A stretch of 64,000 nucleotides of DNA from Actinoallomurus soli (GTDB taxonomy: Bacteria > Actinomycetota > Actinomycetes > Streptosporangiales > Streptosporangiaceae), in assembly GCF_024055715.1 (NCBI RefSeq), contig NZ_JAMXMV010000001.1:1054001-1118000 (forward strand), given 5' to 3'. Of the stretch, positions 30,642 through 39,674 are shown one piece after another. The translations under genes were made by a program, and so were the position numbers. How positions within the stretch are numbered: the stretch's first letter is position 1; each line of letters opens with the position of its first letter. The notes under the pieces were generated by a model. That model made no database searches, was not told the DNA's origin, and saw nothing but the letters and a program-made list of their open reading frames with translations.

Positions 30642-31253
30642 ATGAGTACAACGCCGACGGTGTCTCAACGGCGGGGACGCGGAGGTCGGGAGCGTATTCT
30701 GGCCGCTGCCGCCCAGCTGTTCGCGGCCCAGGGGATCAACGCCACCGGCATGGAACAGGTCGCCGAGAAGGCGCCGGTGTCGAAGCGGACGCTCTACGCG
30801 CACTTCAAGACCAAGAACGACCTGGTCATCGCCCACTTGCAGGGTCTCGTGCTGACGGGTGCCACTCTGGAGAGCGTTCTGGACCGCGAGGACCTCCCCC
30901 CTCGGGAGCGGGTTCTCATGCTCTTCGACCAGATCGCAACGGACGCGGGGCCGGTTCGTGGTTGCCCGTTCATCGATGCCGCCGCGGAGTTTCCGGATCC
31001 GGAGAGCGCGGTCCACTCCTACGCCCGCGACCAGAAACTGCGAATGGTGCGGCTGATCGCCGCCCTGGTGAGGAAACTGGGCTGCCGCGAACCCGATGCA
31101 CTCGCCGAGCAACTGGCCACTCTCGCGGACGGCGCGGCCAGCCGCGCCATGGTGCTGGACGAGGCGGACTACGGCCGGCACGCACGGGCGGCTGCGCAGG
31201 TCCTCCTCGATCATGCTCTGCCGAACACCGACGGACGAGACAAGGGTCGGTGA
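30642..31253 (+). CDS. TetR/AcrR family repressor
   Basis: In this 203-residue protein the N-terminal HTH is GGRERILAAAAQLFAAQGIN, MEQVAEKAPVSKRTLYAHFK, TKNDLVIAHL. The C-terminal part (RGCPFIDAAAEFPD, REPDALAEQLATLADGAASR) matches the TetR_C subfamily that often controls efflux and oxidoreductases. No ribosome site is seen; a -10 box six bases upstream suggests a leaderless transcript. Sites 1-3 of the shared dyad strongly suggest it represses itself, the MFS pump and the former nitroreductase gene. Confidence 0.9.
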   Translation: MSTTPTVSQRRGRGGRERILAAAAQLFAAQGINATGMEQVAEKAPVSKRTLYAHFKTKNDLVIAHLQGLVLTGATLESVLDREDLPPRERVLMLFDQIATDAGPVRGCPFIDAAAEFPDPESAVHSYARDQKLRMVRLIAALVRKLGCREPDALAEQLATLADGAASRAMVLDEADYGRHARAAAQVLLDHALPNTDGRDKGR

Positions 31254-31359: not shown

Positions 31360-34300
31360 ATGACCTTGCGCGAGCTGGTCGCGTCATGGCCGGTCCTCCG
31401 CCAGCTGAAGGGCGGCGACCCGCGGGGCGACGCGGCGAAGAGCCGGCGTACCGCCCGGCTGCGGCCCCGGATCCGGGACGCGGACAAGGTGGTCGACTCC
31501 GTCTGCCCGTACTGCGCGGTGGGCTGCGCGCAGAAGGTCTATGTCAAGGACGAGCGGGTCATCCAGATCGAGGGCGACCCGAAGTCGCCGATCTCCCGCG
31601 GCCGGCTCTGCCCCAAGGGGTCGGCCAGCCTGCAGCTCACCACCGGCTCCTCACGGATGCACGAGGTCCTGTACCGGAGGCCGTACGGGACCGACTGGGA
31701 GCGGCTCCCGCTCGACCGGGCCATGGACATGATCGCCGATCGGATGATCGCCGCTCGCCGGGACGGCTGGGTGTGGGAGTACGAGGGCCGGAACGTCCGG
31801 CACACGCTCGGCATCGCGAGCCTGGGCGGAGCGACGCTGGACAACGAGGAGAACTACCTCCTCAAGAAGCTCTGGACCGCCCTCGGCGCCGTCCAGATCG
31901 AGAACCAGGCCCGTATTTGACACTCCGCGACCGTCCCCGGTCTGGGGACCAGCTTCGGGCGCGGCGGCGCGACGACGTTCCAGCGGGACTTCCGGAACGC
32001 CGACTGCATCCTCATCCAGGGCTCGAACATGGCCGAGTGCCATCCGGTCGGGTTCCAGTGGGTGATGGAGGCCAAGGCGCGCGGCGCGGTCGTGATCCAC
32101 GTCGACCCGAGGTTCACCCGGACCAGCGCGCTGTCCGACCTGCACGTGCCGATCCGCGCCGGCACGGACATCGCCTTCCTCGGCGGCCTGATCCACCACG
32201 TCCTGGAGAACGAGAAGTACTTCCGCGAGTACGTCCTCGCCTACACGAACGCGGCGACGATCGTCCGGGAGGAGTTCCGGGACACCGAGGACCTCGACGG
32301 CCTGTTCTCGGGCTACGACGAGGAGCACCGGGTGTACGACCCCCGGAGCTGGCAGTACGCGGGGAGCGAGATGCCCGCGCCGTCCGGCGAGGTCGACGAG
32401 GAGATGCTCCTGATGACCGAGACGGCGCGTGTCGAGGCTCACGGCTCCGGCGGCCCGGAGGTCTCCGGGAAGATCTACACCGACGAGACGCTGCAGCACC
32501 CCCGGTGCGTGTTCCAGATCCTCAAACGGCACTTCGCGCGGTACACGCCGGAGATGGTCGAGCAGATCTGCGGCGTCCCCCGGGACCTCTTCGACCGGGT
32601 CTGCGAGTACCTCACCGGCAACTCCGGCCCCGACCGTACGACCGCGATCGGGTACGCGGTCGGCTGGACACAGCACACGACCGGCGTGCAGAACATCCGC
32701 GCCGCCTCGATCCTGCAGTCGCTCCTCGGCAACATCGGACGCCCCGGAGGCGGCATCCTCGCCCTGCGCGGGCACGCCAACATCCAGGGCTCCACCGACA
32801 TCCCCGCGCTGTTCGACCTGCTGCCCGCCTACATCCCGATGCCGCACCTGGGGCAGAACGAAGGCCTTGCGGCCTACCTCGAGGACGAGGCGGCGAGCAA
32901 GGGCTACTGGGGCAAGATGTCCGCCTACATGGTCAGCCTGCTGAAGGCCTGGTGGGGCGAGCACGCGACCGCCGACAACGACTTCTGCTTCGACTACCTG
33001 CCCCGGCTGACCGGCAACCACAGCACCTACCACACCGTCCTGCGGCAGATGGAGGGCGTCTGCAAGGGCTACCTGCTGATGGGCGAGAACCCGGCGGCCG
33101 GCTCGTCCAACTCCCGGTACGAGCGCATGGGCATGGCGAACCTCGACTGGCTGGTGGTCCGCGACTTCTCGCTGATCGAGAGCGCGACCTGGTGGAAGGA
33201 CGGCCCGGAGATCGAGACGGGCGAGATGCGCACCGAGGACCTCCGCACCGAGGTCTTCTTCCTGCCGGCCGCGGCGCACACCGAGAAGTCGGGCAGCTTC
33301 ACCAACACCGATCGCCTGCTGCAGTGGCGGGACCAGGCCGTCGAACCCGCCGGCGAGGCCCGCAGCGACCTGTGGTTCGTCTACCACCTCGGCCGGCTGA
33401 TCCGGGAGAGGCTGGCGAGCTCCGACGACCCGATGGACCTGCCGATCAAACACCTGACCTGGGACTACCCGACCGAGGGCACCCAGGCCGAGCCGTCCGC
33501 CGAGGCGGTGCTGGCCGAGATCAACGGCTTCGGCCCCGGCGGACGGCACTTGAGCTCCTACGACGAACTCGCGGACGACGGCTCGACCTCCTGCGGCTGC
33601 TGGATCTACTGCGGCGTCTACGCCGACGGCGTCAACCAGGCCGCGCGCCGCAAGCCCGGCTGGGAACAGGACCACGTGGCGCTGGAATGGGGCTGGGCCT
33701 GGCCCGCGAACCGGCGGATCCTCTACAACCGCGCGTCCGCCGACCCCGGTGGACGCCCCTGGAGCGACCGCAAGGCGTACCTGCGGTGGGACGCCGAGCG
33801 CGGGCGATGGACGGGACCGGACACCCCGGACTTCCCGCCGACCCTGTCCCCGGACCACCGGCCGCCGCCGGACGCCACGGGCCCGGACGCGCTGTCGGGC
33901 ACCGACGCCTTCATCATGCAGGCGGACGGCAGGGCGTGGCTGTACGCGCCCGCCGGCATCGTCGACGGCCCGCTGCCCGCGCACTACGAGCCCCAGGAGT
34001 CGCCGTCGGAGAACCCGCTCTACCACTACGGGCGCAACCCGGCCCGTGAGCTCATCCAGCATCCGGTCAACCGGTACCAGCCCAGCGACGGCAAGCCGGG
34101 ATCGGAGCTCTTCCCCTACGTCACGACCACCTACCGCCTCACCGAGCACCACACCGTCGGCGGGATGTCCCGCTGGGTGCCGTACCTGTCGGAGCTGCAG
34201 CCGGAGTTCTTCTGCGAGGTCTCCCCGGAGCTCGCGGCCGAGCGCGGCCTGACCCACCTCGGCTGGGCCACCATCGTCTCGGCGCGCGCCGTCATCGAGG

Positions 34301-34587
34301 CGCGGGTGCTGGTCACCGAGCGGATGACCCCGCTGATCGTGGAGGGCAGGCCGCTGCACCAGATCGGCCTGCCGTACCACTGGGGACGGAACGGCTACAG
34401 CCGCGGCGACTCGGCCAACGAGCTGGCCCACCTCTCCCTCGACCCGAACACCCACATCCAGGAGGTCAAGGCGATGGCCTGCGACATCCGTCCCGGACGG
34501 CGGCCGCGCGGACCGGCCGCGCTGGAGCTCGTCGAGGACTACCGGCGGCGGGCGGGCATCACCGAGCGGACCGGCATGGAGATCTGA
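31360..34587 (+). CDS. fdnG: Selenocysteine-containing formate dehydrogenase, alpha subunit
   Basis: A 1075-residue molybdo/tungsto-bis-MGD enzyme oxidises formate to CO2. The [4Fe-4S] motif is C49-x2-C52-x3-C56, with C84 in GRLCPKGS. At residue 187 the codon is TGA (31918-31920): the context NQARI-U-HSATVPGLGTSFGR matches the Sec site of E. coli FdnG (NQAR-V-U-H). The frame stays open on both sides in the same phase, and a SECIS hairpin follows at once. Without readthrough the product stops at 186 residues; standard callers will split it in two (the second part starting about 32029). No twin-arginine signal is visible, unlike E. coli FdnG. Beta and gamma genes follow in an operon. SelA, SelB, tRNA-Sec and SelD must be encoded elsewhere. 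Confidence 0.93.
31918..31949 (+). promoter_or_regulatory. Bacterial SECIS element with UGA codon
   Basis: UGA at 31918-31920 is followed after 12 bases by the hairpin GTCCCC-GGTCT-GGGGAC (31933-31949): a perfect 6-bp stem and the pentaloop GGUCU. Counting U of UGA as 1, position 17 is U and positions 23-24 are G and U, the residues known to matter for SelB binding to E. coli fdhF/fdnG SECIS. E. coli fdhF carries the same GGUCU loop. This directs selenocysteine insertion. Confidence 0.9.
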
Positions 34588-34588
34588 C

Positions 34589-35452
34589 ATGGCAGAGCGC
34601 ATGGGCTTCTTCACCGACACCTCCGTGTGCATCGGCTGCAAGGCCTGCGAGGTGGCCTGCAAGGAGTGGAACGCCATCCCGGAGGACGGCCTGAACTTCA
34701 CCGGGATGTCGTACGACAACACCGAGAGGCTCGGCGCCGACAGCTGGCGGCACGTGGCCTTCATCGAGCAGCGCAAGCCGCTGGCCCGGCAGGAGCCCGG
34801 CGTGGACCACGAAGGCCCGGTCCCGCCCCTCGGCACGCCGCCGGACCTGGCCCCGATGAACCCCATGACGCCGGGAGAGGGCGGCGACCTGCGCTGGCTG
34901 ATGTCCAGTGACGTCTGCAAGCACTGCACGGTCGCGGCCTGCCTGGACGTCTGCCCCACCGGCGCGCTCTTCCGTACGGAGTTCGGCACGGTCGTCGTCC
35001 AGTCCGACGTCTGCAACGGCTGCGGCTACTGCATCCCGGCCTGCCCGTTCGGCGTGCTCGGCCAGCGCAAGGACGACGGTCGGGCCTGGAAGTGCACGCT
35101 GTGCTACGACCGGATCGGCGACGGCCTGGAACCCGCGTGCGCCAAGGCATGCCCGACCGACTCGATCCAGTACGGGCCCCTGGACGAGCTGCGCGAACGC
35201 GCCGCGGCCCGGGTCACCACCCTGAACGACGCGGGCGTCGACGACGCGCGCCTCTACCTCGCCGACACCGACGACGGGATCGGGGGAGCGGGCGCGTTCT
35301 TCCTCCTCCTCGACGACCCCGAGGTGTACGGCCTGCCCCCCGACCCGATCGCCACGACCCGCGACCTGCCGGCCATGTGGCGGCACGCCGCGCTCGCCGC
35401 CGCGGGCCTGCTCGGCGCCGGCCTGCTCGCGTTCGCCGGGCGGCGGCGATGA
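34589..35452 (+). CDS. fdnH: Formate dehydrogenase beta subunit, 4Fe-4S ferredoxin type
   Basis: This 287-residue electron-transfer subunit has four cysteine clusters: CIGCKACEVACKEWN (16-30), CKHCTVAACLDVCPTGALF, CNGCGYCIPACPFGVLG and CTLCYDRIGDGLEPACAKAC, enough for four [4Fe-4S] clusters as in FdnH/FdoH. The C-terminal ~20 residues (ALAAAGLLGAGLLAFAGRRR) form one membrane helix that anchors the hydrophilic part. It passes electrons from the alpha subunit to the NrfD-like partner. The start is one base after the fdnG stop; its own stop overlaps the next ATG. Confidence 0.92.
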   Translation: MAERMGFFTDTSVCIGCKACEVACKEWNAIPEDGLNFTGMSYDNTERLGADSWRHVAFIEQRKPLARQEPGVDHEGPVPPLGTPPDLAPMNPMTPGEGGDLRWLMSSDVCKHCTVAACLDVCPTGALFRTEFGTVVVQSDVCNGCGYCIPACPFGVLGQRKDDGRAWKCTLCYDRIGDGLEPACAKACPTDSIQYGPLDELRERAAARVTTLNDAGVDDARLYLADTDDGIGGAGAFFLLLDDPEVYGLPPDPIATTRDLPAMWRHAALAAAGLLGAGLLAFAGRRR

Positions 35453-36546
35453 GCGAGGAGGCGCGGGGGCGGGACGACGGACAGGCCGGACGGGACGCGA
35501 TCAGCGAGGAGGTGCACGGACGGCAGGCGCTGAGCCCCGGGGACCACGCGCGCGACGCGCTCACCGGTACCGCCGGCCCCCGCCGGCGCCGTCGCCGCCG
35601 CGAACGGCCGGTGGTGCCCGAGCCGGAGTTCACCTCCTACTACGGCAGGCCGGTGGTCAAGCCGCCCGTCTGGAAGGCGCTCGACATCGCCGGATACCTG
35701 TTCCTCGGCGGACTGGCGGGCGCGTCCTCGGTCCTTTCCGCCGGCGCCGAGCTGACCGGACGGCCCCGCCTGGCCCGCGGCACCCGGATCGGCGCCGCCG
35801 GCGCGATCGCGGTGAGCCTGGCCGCCCTGGTCCACGACCTCGGCCGCCCCGCGCGCTTCGTCAACATGCTGCGGGTGCTGAAGTGGACCTCGCCGATGAG
35901 CGTCGGCTCCTGGATCCTCAGTGCGTACGCCCCGGCCGCCGGAGCCGCCGCCCTCTCCGCCGTGACCGGCCGCCTCCCGCGGATCGGCACGGCCGGCGCG
36001 ATGGCCGGCGCGGTCGCCGGACCGGCCGTCGCCGCCTACACCGGTGTCCTCCTCGCGGACACCGCGGTCCCCGGATGGCATGAGGGCCACCGCGAGCTGC
36101 CGTATCTGTTCGTGTCCTCGGCCGCCGGGGCGGGCGGCGGCCTTGGCCTGCTGGTCGCGCCACTGGCGGAGGCGGCGCCCGCCCGCCGCATGGGCGTGGC
36201 GGGCGGCACCGCCGAACTCCTGGTGGCCCACTTCATGCGAAGGCGGATGGGCGTCGTCGCCGAGGCGTACGAGACCGGCCGCGCCGGCGTGCTCATCCGT
36301 ACGGCGGAGGCCCTGACGGGCGCGGGCGCCCTCGCCGCCGTCCTCGGACGGCGCAGCCGATGGCTCTCGGCCGCCGCGGGCGGGGCACTCCTCGCGGGCT
36401 CGGCCCTCACCCGTTTCGGCGTCTTCGAGGCCGGAATGATCTCCTCGAAGGACCCGAAGTACACGGTCGTCCCCCAGCGCGCCCGCCTCGACGCCCGCGA
36501 CGACGGGAACGCCGTACGGCCGGACGGCACCGTCCAGCAGCACTGA
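35449..36546 (+). CDS. nrfD: NrfD/PsrC-type membrane subunit of formate dehydrogenase
   Basis: This 365-residue integral membrane protein has a ~70-residue charged N-terminal tail (with an arginine run around 45-52), then eight or so helices. The NrfD motif region LAALVHDLGRPARFVNMLRV and KWTSPMSVGSWILSAYA is clear. NrfD proteins carry quinone-site electrons without heme; they replace cytochrome b-type gamma subunits of the E. coli enzyme. The ATG overlaps the fdnH stop. A C-terminal RFGVFEAGMISSKDPKYTV is typical of the formate-dehydrogenase-linked branch. The three subunits form a quinone-reducing formate oxidase. Confidence 0.9.
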   Translation: MSEEARGRDDGQAGRDAISEEVHGRQALSPGDHARDALTGTAGPRRRRRRRERPVVPEPEFTSYYGRPVVKPPVWKALDIAGYLFLGGLAGASSVLSAGAELTGRPRLARGTRIGAAGAIAVSLAALVHDLGRPARFVNMLRVLKWTSPMSVGSWILSAYAPAAGAAALSAVTGRLPRIGTAGAMAGAVAGPAVAAYTGVLLADTAVPGWHEGHRELPYLFVSSAAGAGGGLGLLVAPLAEAAPARRMGVAGGTAELLVAHFMRRRMGVVAEAYETGRAGVLIRTAEALTGAGALAAVLGRRSRWLSAAAGGALLAGSALTRFGVFEAGMISSKDPKYTVVPQRARLDARDDGNAVRPDGTVQQH

Positions 36547-37935: not shown

Positions 37936-38261
37936 CGATGACGACATCGGTCTCGACGCCGTCAGAGGCGTTCCTGTGAGCGGAAGGGCTTTCGCCGACC
38001 GTCGCGGGACCGCCCTGGGCGCCGAGAACCGGTGGGGGAGCGAGGTGCGGAAAACCGCTCGACAGGGGCGGCCGGTGATCAGCCCTCCTCCGGCGGATAT
38101 CGGCCGCCCATGCCCCAGATGGCGAGTGCCGCCGTCCTGGCGGGCGACCGCCTCCCCGCCGGCCGGACGTCCGACGACCGTGGTCAGCGGCCCTCCAGCG
38201 GCTCTTGAGGCGCCGGCGGCACAGTGCTCTCCGTTCGCAGCGACGGGGAGAAGGTGCCGGA
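37936..38261. other. Intergenic stretch upstream of the multicopper oxidase
   Basis: 326 bases with no convincing gene. GGGGAGAAGGTGCCGG just before 38262 supplies the ribosome site for the oxidase. No obvious copper-responsive dyad was found. Confidence 0.4.
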
Positions 38262-39674
38262 ATGCTCGATCGGAGACAGACCCTGAGGATCGGTGCGCTG
38301 GGGGGCGCGGCACTGCTCCTCCCGGGCGGCGCGCGCGGTGCGGTCGCGCGCGCGGCGGACACGTCGCCGTTCTCACTGCCGCTCGTCGTCCCGCCGGTCA
38401 AGCGCCCGGTGCGCCGGACGGCCACGACGGACTACTACGAGATGACCATGCGGGAGGCGACCGCCCAGATCCTGCCCGGCGTGCAGACCCCGGTGATGAC
38501 GTACGACGGGTGCTTCCCCGGCCCGACGATCCGCGCCCGACCCGGCCGGCGCGTCGTGGTGCGGCAGCGGAACGCCCTGGGGATGGAGGCCGTGGTGCAC
38601 CTGCACGGGGCGCACGTGCCGGCCGACAGCGACGGGCACCCGAAGGACCCGATCGCGCCGGGCGCCTTCCGCGACTACGTCTACCCGAACCTGCAGCCCG
38701 CCGCGACGCTCTGGTATCACGACCACACGCACCACATGGAGGCCGAGATGGTCTTCCGCGGGCTGGCCGGCTGCTACCTGCTGGACGAACCACGGAGGAC
38801 CGGCCTGCCCGCGGGCCGCTACGACCTGCCGCTCATGCTGCGCGACGCGCAGTTCGACGACCAGGGCGGCCTGGTGTTCACGATGGGAGACGCCCGGAAG
38901 CGCACCGTGCTCCTGGTCAACGGGTGCCGGCAGCCCTATCATCCGGTCGCCGCCCGCAAGTACCGGCTGCGGCTGATCAACGGCGCGAACACGCGCTACT
39001 TCACGCTCGGCCTCAGCGACGGCCGTCCGATGTGGCTGATCGCCTCCGACGGCGGCCTGCTGCCGGCACCCGTGCGCGCCACCGGCGTCACCCTCTCACC
39101 GGGCGAGCGGGTCGACGCCGTCGTCGACTTCGCCGACCTCGCGCCGGGCTCGCAGCTCACCCTGCGGAACACCGACGCGAACACCGGCCAGCCGTCGGAC
39201 CTCCTGCGCTTCGACGTCGTCCGCCGGGCGTACGACCCCAGCCGCATCCCGTCGAGGCTCGGCGGCTCCCCGCCCGACCTCGGCCCGGCGGCGGTCCACC
39301 GCGACATCGTCATGGGGGTGAACCCCATCACCGGCATGTCCGAGATCAACGGCAGGTCCTTCGACATGGACCGGATCGATCAGCGGATCCAGCTCGGCCA
39401 GACCGAGGAGTGGCGCATCGTCAACAGCGACGTCAACCCGCCGATCCGGCACAACCTCCACGTGCACGGAACGCACTTCCAGGTCATCGATCGCAACGGC
39501 GTACCGGTGTCCGGCCACGAGGCCGGCTGGAAGGACACGGTGGCGATCCCGAACGGCGGCGACGTGCGGATCAGGGTGCGCTACGAGCGCTATACCGGCC
39601 TGTACCTCTACCACTGCCACCTGCTCGATCACTCGTCGATGGGCATGATGGCCCAGTCCGAGGTCACCGCCTGA
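38262..39674 (+). CDS. Multicopper oxidase, CueO/bilirubin-oxidase type
   Basis: This 470-residue three-cupredoxin oxidase has the N-terminus LDRRQTLRIGALGGAALLLP, a Tat signal (RRQTL). Copper ligands: VVHLHGAHVPA and TLWYHDHTHHM in domain 1, RHNLHVHGTHFQV and LYHCHLLDHSSMGMM in domain 3, giving type 2/3 histidines and the type 1 Cys-His-Met set. These enzymes oxidise phenols or Cu(I) and reduce O2 to water outside the cell. The solitary TatA at 26.0 kb or the genome's main Tat system would export it. Its TGA is the first codon of repeat copy A. Confidence 0.92.
   Translation: MLDRRQTLRIGALGGAALLLPGGARGAVARAADTSPFSLPLVVPPVKRPVRRTATTDYYEMTMREATAQILPGVQTPVMTYDGCFPGPTIRARPGRRVVVRQRNALGMEAVVHLHGAHVPADSDGHPKDPIAPGAFRDYVYPNLQPAATLWYHDHTHHMEAEMVFRGLAGCYLLDEPRRTGLPAGRYDLPLMLRDAQFDDQGGLVFTMGDARKRTVLLVNGCRQPYHPVAARKYRLRLINGANTRYFTLGLSDGRPMWLIASDGGLLPAPVRATGVTLSPGERVDAVVDFADLAPGSQLTLRNTDANTGQPSDLLRFDVVRRAYDPSRIPSRLGGSPPDLGPAAVHRDIVMGVNPITGMSEINGRSFDMDRIDQRIQLGQTEEWRIVNSDVNPPIRHNLHVHGTHFQVIDRNGVPVSGHEAGWKDTVAIPNGGDVRIRVRYERYTGLYLYHCHLLDHSSMGMMAQSEVTA

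Follow-up and report, generated by a model that had tools for sequence, protein, structure and literature searches.

A probable selenocysteine-containing formate dehydrogenase in Actinoallomurus soli and the codon that precedes its in-frame UGA

A reading frame interrupted by a single TGA raises the question of whether that codon is a stop, a lesion or a site at which selenocysteine (Sec) is incorporated. Such a frame lies on the forward strand of a 64,000-nucleotide stretch of Actinoallomurus soli, referred to here as the window, where it extends over 1075 codons from an ATG at 31360 to a TGA at 34585–34587, with the only internal TGA at 31918–31920. An annotation that takes UGA as a stop would split this frame, designated fdhA, into two proteins or call it a pseudogene, and misannotation of this sort is plausible. 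The gene very probably encodes a Sec-containing formate-oxidising enzyme of the kind known in actinomycetes, and we hold with high confidence that the locus is an fdhABC operon in which a selenoprotein alpha subunit, receiving Sec through SelB and a SECIS hairpin, oxidises formate via FdhB and an NrfD-type subunit. The frame, the site of the TGA, the length of 1075 residues, Sec187, the hairpin sequence and its 12-base spacer, all proposed in a first-pass annotation, were recovered unchanged from the window, and the proposal of a single selenoprotein formate dehydrogenase (FDH) now has the support of homology, alignment with the Sec of solved structures, conservation of the hairpin and the presence of Sec machinery.

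The fdhA frame and its operon

Against NF041513, the NCBIfam model of actinobacterial formate dehydrogenase, fdhA (31360–34587, +) scores 1949.9 bits (cut-off 1400), with residues 7–1064 covering positions 3–1067 of the 1067-position model; because this match opens at residue 7 and model position 3, the start at 31360 fits, and two more ATGs of the same frame are found on its upstream side, at 31213 and 31096. The FDH-N alpha model TIGR01553 gives 927.2 bits (cut-off 814.2), the domains PF04879, PF00384 and PF01568 are present, and FDH alpha subunits are the best matches among solved structures. Residue 187, encoded by the UGA at 31918–31920 (+), is aligned to X (Sec) in 1KQF and 1H0H, and its reading as Sec is based on this alignment and on conservation of the codon. 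Third-codon-position GC is 0.96 over the gene. The alpha subunit of E. coli FDH-N carries a Tat signal peptide; inspection by eye of the first 60 residues of the present alpha subunit found no twin-arginine motif with a hydrophobic stretch.

Directly downstream, fdhB (34589–35452, +) encodes an iron-sulfur electron-transfer subunit of 287 residues, which matches PF13247 over its cut-off and TIGR01582 with 174.3 bits, below the cut-off of 334.7. It is followed by fdhC (35449–36546, +), encoding an NrfD-type membrane subunit of 365 residues, for which PF03916 (NrfD) is over cut-off on the open reading frame 35092–36546; its start, placed from the sequence, overlaps the fdhB stop (ATGA). With fdhB and an NrfD-type fdhC downstream, the operon therefore encodes an enzyme of three subunits, anchored by an NrfD-type protein. 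A multicopper oxidase gene lies downstream of the operon at 38205–39674.

The SECIS hairpin in Sec and Cys loci

For comparison, 166 loci were read, comprising the window, two paralogues of the host itself, 80 scan loci (the best 80 of at least 587 confirmed matches), 76 regions from a class-wide draw and 7 others, the latter being seven of the ten loci of one set, of which the remaining three were taken for tRNA genes. At codon 187 these loci have TGA (134), TAG (1), TGC (26) or TGT (5), and no other codon. Species may recur across the sources, and the 135 Sec contexts reduce to 107 unique ones. Residues 180–202 were left out of the FastTree tree, in which 40 of the 163 inner branches are weakly supported. 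The Sec/Cys trait switches twice on it; as one switch depends on L200, a fragment that is 20% filled, the contrast between Sec and Cys loci represents one or two events, not many. A sel gene is present in the flanks (up to 6 kb, some shorter) of 41/67 Sec loci and of 0/13 Cys loci.

The SECIS hairpin of fdhA (31933–31949, +), identified by pairing, covariation and a SECIS model (R1), consists of the stem GTCCCC/GGGGAC (31933–31938 and 31944–31949) and the loop GGTCT (31939–31943). Numbered from the U of UGA, its six pairs run from 16–32 to 21–27, and all six are present in 130/135 Sec loci vs 0/31 Cys homologues. Pair 18–30 varies among the 135 Sec loci (CG 49, TA 64, TG 14, GC 2, non-pairs 6), and the loop bases G23, T24 and T26 are unvarying in all of them; T occurs at position 24 in 6 of the 31 Cys loci. 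The first-pass annotation had relied on agreement with U17, G23 and U24 of the E. coli element. That agreement stands, but U17 is not diagnostic, as T is found there in 31/31 Cys homologues too; position 17 is the second base of a Val codon that is conserved, and in the window it can pair with A31 and not bulge. The 5′ arm includes the CCC codon of Pro193 (31936–31938, +), which is CCC in 135/135 Sec loci and in 0/31 Cys loci, where residue 193 is Ala, Val or Ser. With Pro193 in every Sec locus and in no Cys locus, the SECIS arm seems to impose a change on the protein. In one Geodermatophilaceae locus (L237), two changes swap SECIS pair 21–27 from C-G to G-C (CCGGGTCTCGGG), a single case of support for the stem.

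Over 22 SECIS contexts hand-picked for diversity among the loci read, the covariation score was 0.230, compared with 0.105 for shuffled alignments, and none of 500 shuffles was as high; in the same contexts only one pair had changed at both of its bases, a level also reached by 438 of 500 shuffles. An Rfam scan of the window at the gathering threshold returned no match. A 43-nt fold around the SECIS was no better than its shuffles (z 0.35), and the 23-nt hairpin alone gave z −1.41, with 18 of 200 shuffles equally good. Folding of free mRNA counts against the hairpin, with a probability of 0.00–0.20 in 17 of 18 spans. With the UGA and the next 9 nt removed, as if held by the ribosome, the probability rose to 0.60–1.0 in the four spans tested, which suits a hairpin predicted to form as the ribosome arrives. 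Applied by hand, the bacterial SECIS constraints given in the available portion of PMC13188914 (loop of 3–9 nt, stem of 4–16 bp, G in the first two loop positions, 16–37 nt from UGA to loop, and a minimum free energy of −7.5 kcal/mol or lower) accommodate the fdhA hairpin, which has a 5-nt loop, 6 bp, GG, 18 nt and −11.4 kcal/mol (23-nt hairpin).

Model R1 gave 72.2 bits for the window, itself within the training set, 53.8–75.0 bits for four Sec loci outside that set, and 22.9–38.6 bits for 17 Cys loci. The model is lineage-bound, because the Sec genes of E. coli (28.2) and S. meliloti (36.1) score in the range of Cys genes. Among the 150 of 9590 first-look candidates scored in the host genome, the two Sec FDHs had 75.4 and 72.2 bits, the Cys copy had 29.9, and the remaining matches did not exceed 18.2, so that no further SECIS site of the R1 type was found there.

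The codon preceding the Sec codon

The strongest synonymous constraint of the gene lies not in the hairpin but 5′ of the UGA, at codon 186 (ATT, 31915–31917, +). In the 135 Sec loci this codon is always ATT (77), GTT (31) or ATA (27), whereas GTC or GTG occupies the position in all 31 Cys loci, and ATT, GTT or ATA occur in 0/31. A synonymous-bias scan of 1064 sites ranked codon 186 first with 4.60 bits per sequence (median 0.12, 99th percentile 1.07), ahead of the hairpin sites 194, 192, 196 and 193; the third-ranked site, 494, depends on 2 sequences. Elsewhere in the same Sec genes (sites 186 and 192 excluded, the hairpin site 192 holding 78 GTT codons), only 2.9% of 14379 Ile/Val codons end in U or A. 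On the tree, codon 186 changes 31 times, one most parsimonious reading being ATA-ATT 19 times and ATT-GTT 12 times, and it never shifts to ATC or GTC, though these are one synonymous step off and dominant in these genes.

The preference persists where Sec is encoded by UAG. In the Geodermatophilus family, an FDH match is present in 100 of 112 genomes, and all 30 Geodermatophilaceae loci read have TAG at 187, preceded by ATA, and form the six hairpin pairs in full; elsewhere in these UAG loci 1.3% of Ile/Val codons (n=3401) end in U or A, with 20 of these being ATA at site 152. As one of these loci (L230) is L097 again, the distinct actinobacterial Sec loci number 164 (134 UGA, 30 UAG), with ATT in 77, ATA in 56 and GTT in 31, and with ATC, GTC, GTG and GTA never found at codon 186. 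GTA is absent from this position (0/164) though it is used 140 times in the rest of the Sec genes, vs 122 times for GTT, among the 14379 codons. ATA in 30/30 UAG loci means that the rule holds with another stop codon and another release factor.

The rule is lineage-bound, because proteobacterial Sec loci use GTC before the Sec codon: among 17 chosen outgroup loci, this applies to all 11 proteobacterial ones, among them E. coli fdnG and fdoG and a gene of Indioceanicola that is closer to the actinobacterial type (51% identity). Of the other outgroup loci, Thermomicrobium has ATA, an Arthrobacter plasmid ATT and a Tsukamurella plasmid ATA, and the remaining three are Cys loci. The E. coli extended SECIS reaches upstream of UGA. 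No earlier report of the codon rule was found in the open-licence literature searched, in so far as its text was available, and the rule looks new. The bacterial SECIS model in the available portion of PMC13188914 covers only the 3′ side of UGA.

What the permitted codons share may be the way in which they are decoded. ARAGORN, run on the stretches of the host's 51 Rfam tRNA matches, found Val tRNAs with TAC, GAC and CAC, an Ile tRNA with GAT only, and several tRNAs with CAT, one of which is presumably the lysidine-modified Ile tRNA. With this set, ATT and GTT would be read by G.U and ATA by lysidine.A, and ATC, GTC, GTG and GTA have Watson-Crick readers; on codon identity and the tRNA set of this one genome, ATT, GTT and ATA thus seem to be those Ile/Val codons whose third base is decoded in the host by something other than a Watson-Crick pair. 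We tentatively propose, while thinking it somewhat more likely to be wrong than right, a second cis-element 5′ of the Sec codon, by which the P-site codon must lack a Watson-Crick third pair; loose P-site pairing might then favour delivery by SelB over the release factor concerned (RF2 for UGA, RF1 for UAG). The rule could instead reflect an A/U patch by which pairing around UGA is prevented, and CGT at codon 185 in 59/135 loci agrees with this, but the same codon is CGC in 28/30 UAG loci. A pause at rare codons is a further rival. Among 104 other sites in the 135 loci, none covaried with the base before UGA as a pairing partner, the highest mutual information being 0.19 at −4. An overlapping restart codon (ATGA or TTGA) was considered and is unlikely to be the cause, as GTGA would be equally usable yet occurs in 0/135. 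Folding of the mRNA around UGA in the host's two Sec genes gave no clear indication either way that structure underlies the rule. The constraint 5′ of UGA persists at UAG and is absent in Cys homologues. Should it act on recoding, it would offer a handle on the competition between Sec insertion and termination, and could also help in the recognition of Sec codons where genomes are GC-rich.

Sec machinery, competing readings and known systems

The host assembly comprises 9.42 Mb in 60 contigs (98.06% complete, 3.15% contamination). The first-pass annotation expected the host to carry Sec machinery, and selA (410.8 bits), selB (278.9) and selD (387.5), each over cut-off, are found in this assembly on one contig, C23, together with a tRNA-Sec of 75.9 bits with anticodon TCA. 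The same contig carries a second TGA-bearing FDH (C23:18174–21413), and a third paralogue (C1:230256–233504) has TGT and is without the hairpin. A search of the 64-kb window with SelA, SelB and SelD of C23 gave no match. In composition, C23 correlates with the window halves at 0.905 and 0.903, with other loci of the host at 0.893 and with Streptomyces at 0.892, which is compatible with a common origin of C23 and the window but does not set C23 apart from Streptomyces. On the tree, the C23 FDH belongs to a starred set of six Sec rows, and the five rows closest to it all come from the host's own family. Composition and tree position speak against contamination as the source of C23 without excluding it.

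Co-occurrence was assessed in a class draw of 296 genomes, with the two best candidates of each genome scored, an FDH match accepted at 1e-100 or below, and a tRNA-Sec called strong at 67.8 bits or more. An FDH match was present in 82 genomes and a TGA-bearing one in 67; excluding G283, whose TGA lies at residue 860 and whose codon 187 encodes Cys, leaves 66, all with TGA at 187. A strong tRNA-Sec was found in 63 of these 66 vs 11 of the 230 others, namely G206, which has a Cys gene only, and ten without an FDH match. Three genomes with a Sec gene, G022, G058 and G222, had no tRNA-Sec over the cut-off even in a laxer search, which counts against Sec recoding; two of them are 93% and 84% complete, and G222 is 100% complete. 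Weaker matches of 49.2–55.2 bits, above the Rfam cut-off and not counted as strong, occur in 17 further genomes. In total 74 of 296 genomes (25%) have a strong tRNA-Sec and 66 have a TGA-187 gene, so the earlier remark that Sec usage is uncommon in actinomycetes does not hold.

Several individual cases emerged from these comparisons. The ten genomes with a strong tRNA-Sec and no FDH match at 1e-100 (G005, G015, G043, G108, G140, G151, G158, G183, G275 and G285) may hold other selenoproteins, or their FDH gene may have been missed. Saccharomonospora halophila 8 (L061) has a TGA FDH, the full hairpin and a tRNA-Sec of 76.5 bits, and is probably a Sec user; it stands among the orphan-SelD organisms in Table 1 of PMC5029168. 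A plasmid of Arthrobacter sp. YA7-1, typed as conjugative (L204; 28161–47403, reversed), carries a Sec-FDH, fdhB, nrfD, selD, a tRNA-Sec (TCA), selA and selB, with an integrase and a Tn3 transposase as neighbours, and judged by its gene content is a complete mobile Sec package. In L124 (G275:C1:108000–127000), a tRNA-Sec family match of 66.8 bits, over the cut-off, has, by ARAGORN, the Cys anticodon ACA, and contig C97 of G275 holds a further copy, with TCA; the former is possibly degenerate, or points to recoding of UGU as Sec. Contig C38 of Sinosporangium siamense (G303) has two tRNA-Sec matches over the cut-off (83.2 and 70.2 bits), separated by about 5 kb, and the FDH locus fetched from this genome (L099) has Cys.

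These data bear on readings of the TGA other than recoding. As a true stop, with a restart at ATG 32029, it would split the enzyme into two proteins, and both halves are indeed open frames. Residues 187–223 with the catalytic Sec-His pair would then be lost, however, and neither the family model spanning the whole frame nor the strong synonymous constraint right before and after the TGA would be expected; we regard this as very improbable. A stray TGA does occur in one Cys homologue, that of G283, and the present TGA might likewise be a Cys codon altered by nonsense mutation or misread in sequencing. This is scarcely credible where TGA or TAG occupies the codon in 135 of 166 loci, with G23, T24 and T26 in all of these and a complete stem in 130. 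A stop of the form UGA-C is leaky, and such leakiness would permit reading by a near-cognate tRNA (Trp or Cys) with no selenium involved; as this leaves the SECIS, the sel genes and the co-occurrence with tRNA-Sec unexplained, we give it next to no credence either.

Under Sec recoding, the preferred reading, the hairpin would fold just beyond the ribosome as this arrives at codon 187 and its UGA, while SelA, SelD and tRNA-Sec encoded on contig C23 would supply Sec-tRNA-Sec in trans. SelB carrying Sec-tRNA-Sec would bind the loop and deliver Sec to residue 187, the active-site position that would ligate molybdenum or tungsten, and loss to release factor 2 would leave a 186-residue fragment. The full enzyme would convert formate to CO2, with electrons passing through the iron-sulfur clusters of FdhB to the NrfD-type subunit and probably to menaquinone, and the Cys paralogue may serve as a backup at low selenium.

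Among known systems, E. coli FdnG/FdoG (1KQF) resembles fdhA (identity about 38%) in its Sec, which aligns with residue 187, and in a SECIS in the same place, and differs in having GTC, not ATT, before UGA and another stem sequence. The gamma subunit of E. coli FDH-N (FdnGHI) is a cytochrome b, whereas the third gene of the host operon is of the NrfD type (PF03916). A UAG-Sec FdhA of Geodermatophilaceae was reportedly described by Mukai in 2016. It belongs to the same family, with 64–70% identity (tblastn) and the six hairpin pairs in 30/30 loci, but its Sec codon is UAG preceded by ATA in all 30 loci read, while the host has UGA after ATT; UAG-Sec in this family is in print, as the available text of PMC5330540 indicates, and the same paper names a UAG-Sec AhpC from Blastococcus. 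A further close system is that of Actinomycetospora chiangmaiensis DSM 45062, for which the available text of PMC7176365 gives three Sec-FDHs (FdhA1–3), proteome data and dependence on selenite, in whose presence formate accumulation was almost negligible. It shares with the host an actinobacterial Sec-FDH, FdhB, a membrane FdhC and SelA/SelB/SelD; SelA and SelB are listed in its FDH1 cluster, whereas the 64-kb host window has no selA, selB or selD. Streptomyces incarnatus, likened here by the description in its genome announcement (PMC4498112, as available), also has an actinomycete selenoprotein FDH (Sec-FDH-O) and Sec machinery (selABCD). Actinomycete Sec-FDHs accompanied by sel genes are thus already known, and the host gene adds another to a group of genes that, by the class draw, is common in actinomycetes.
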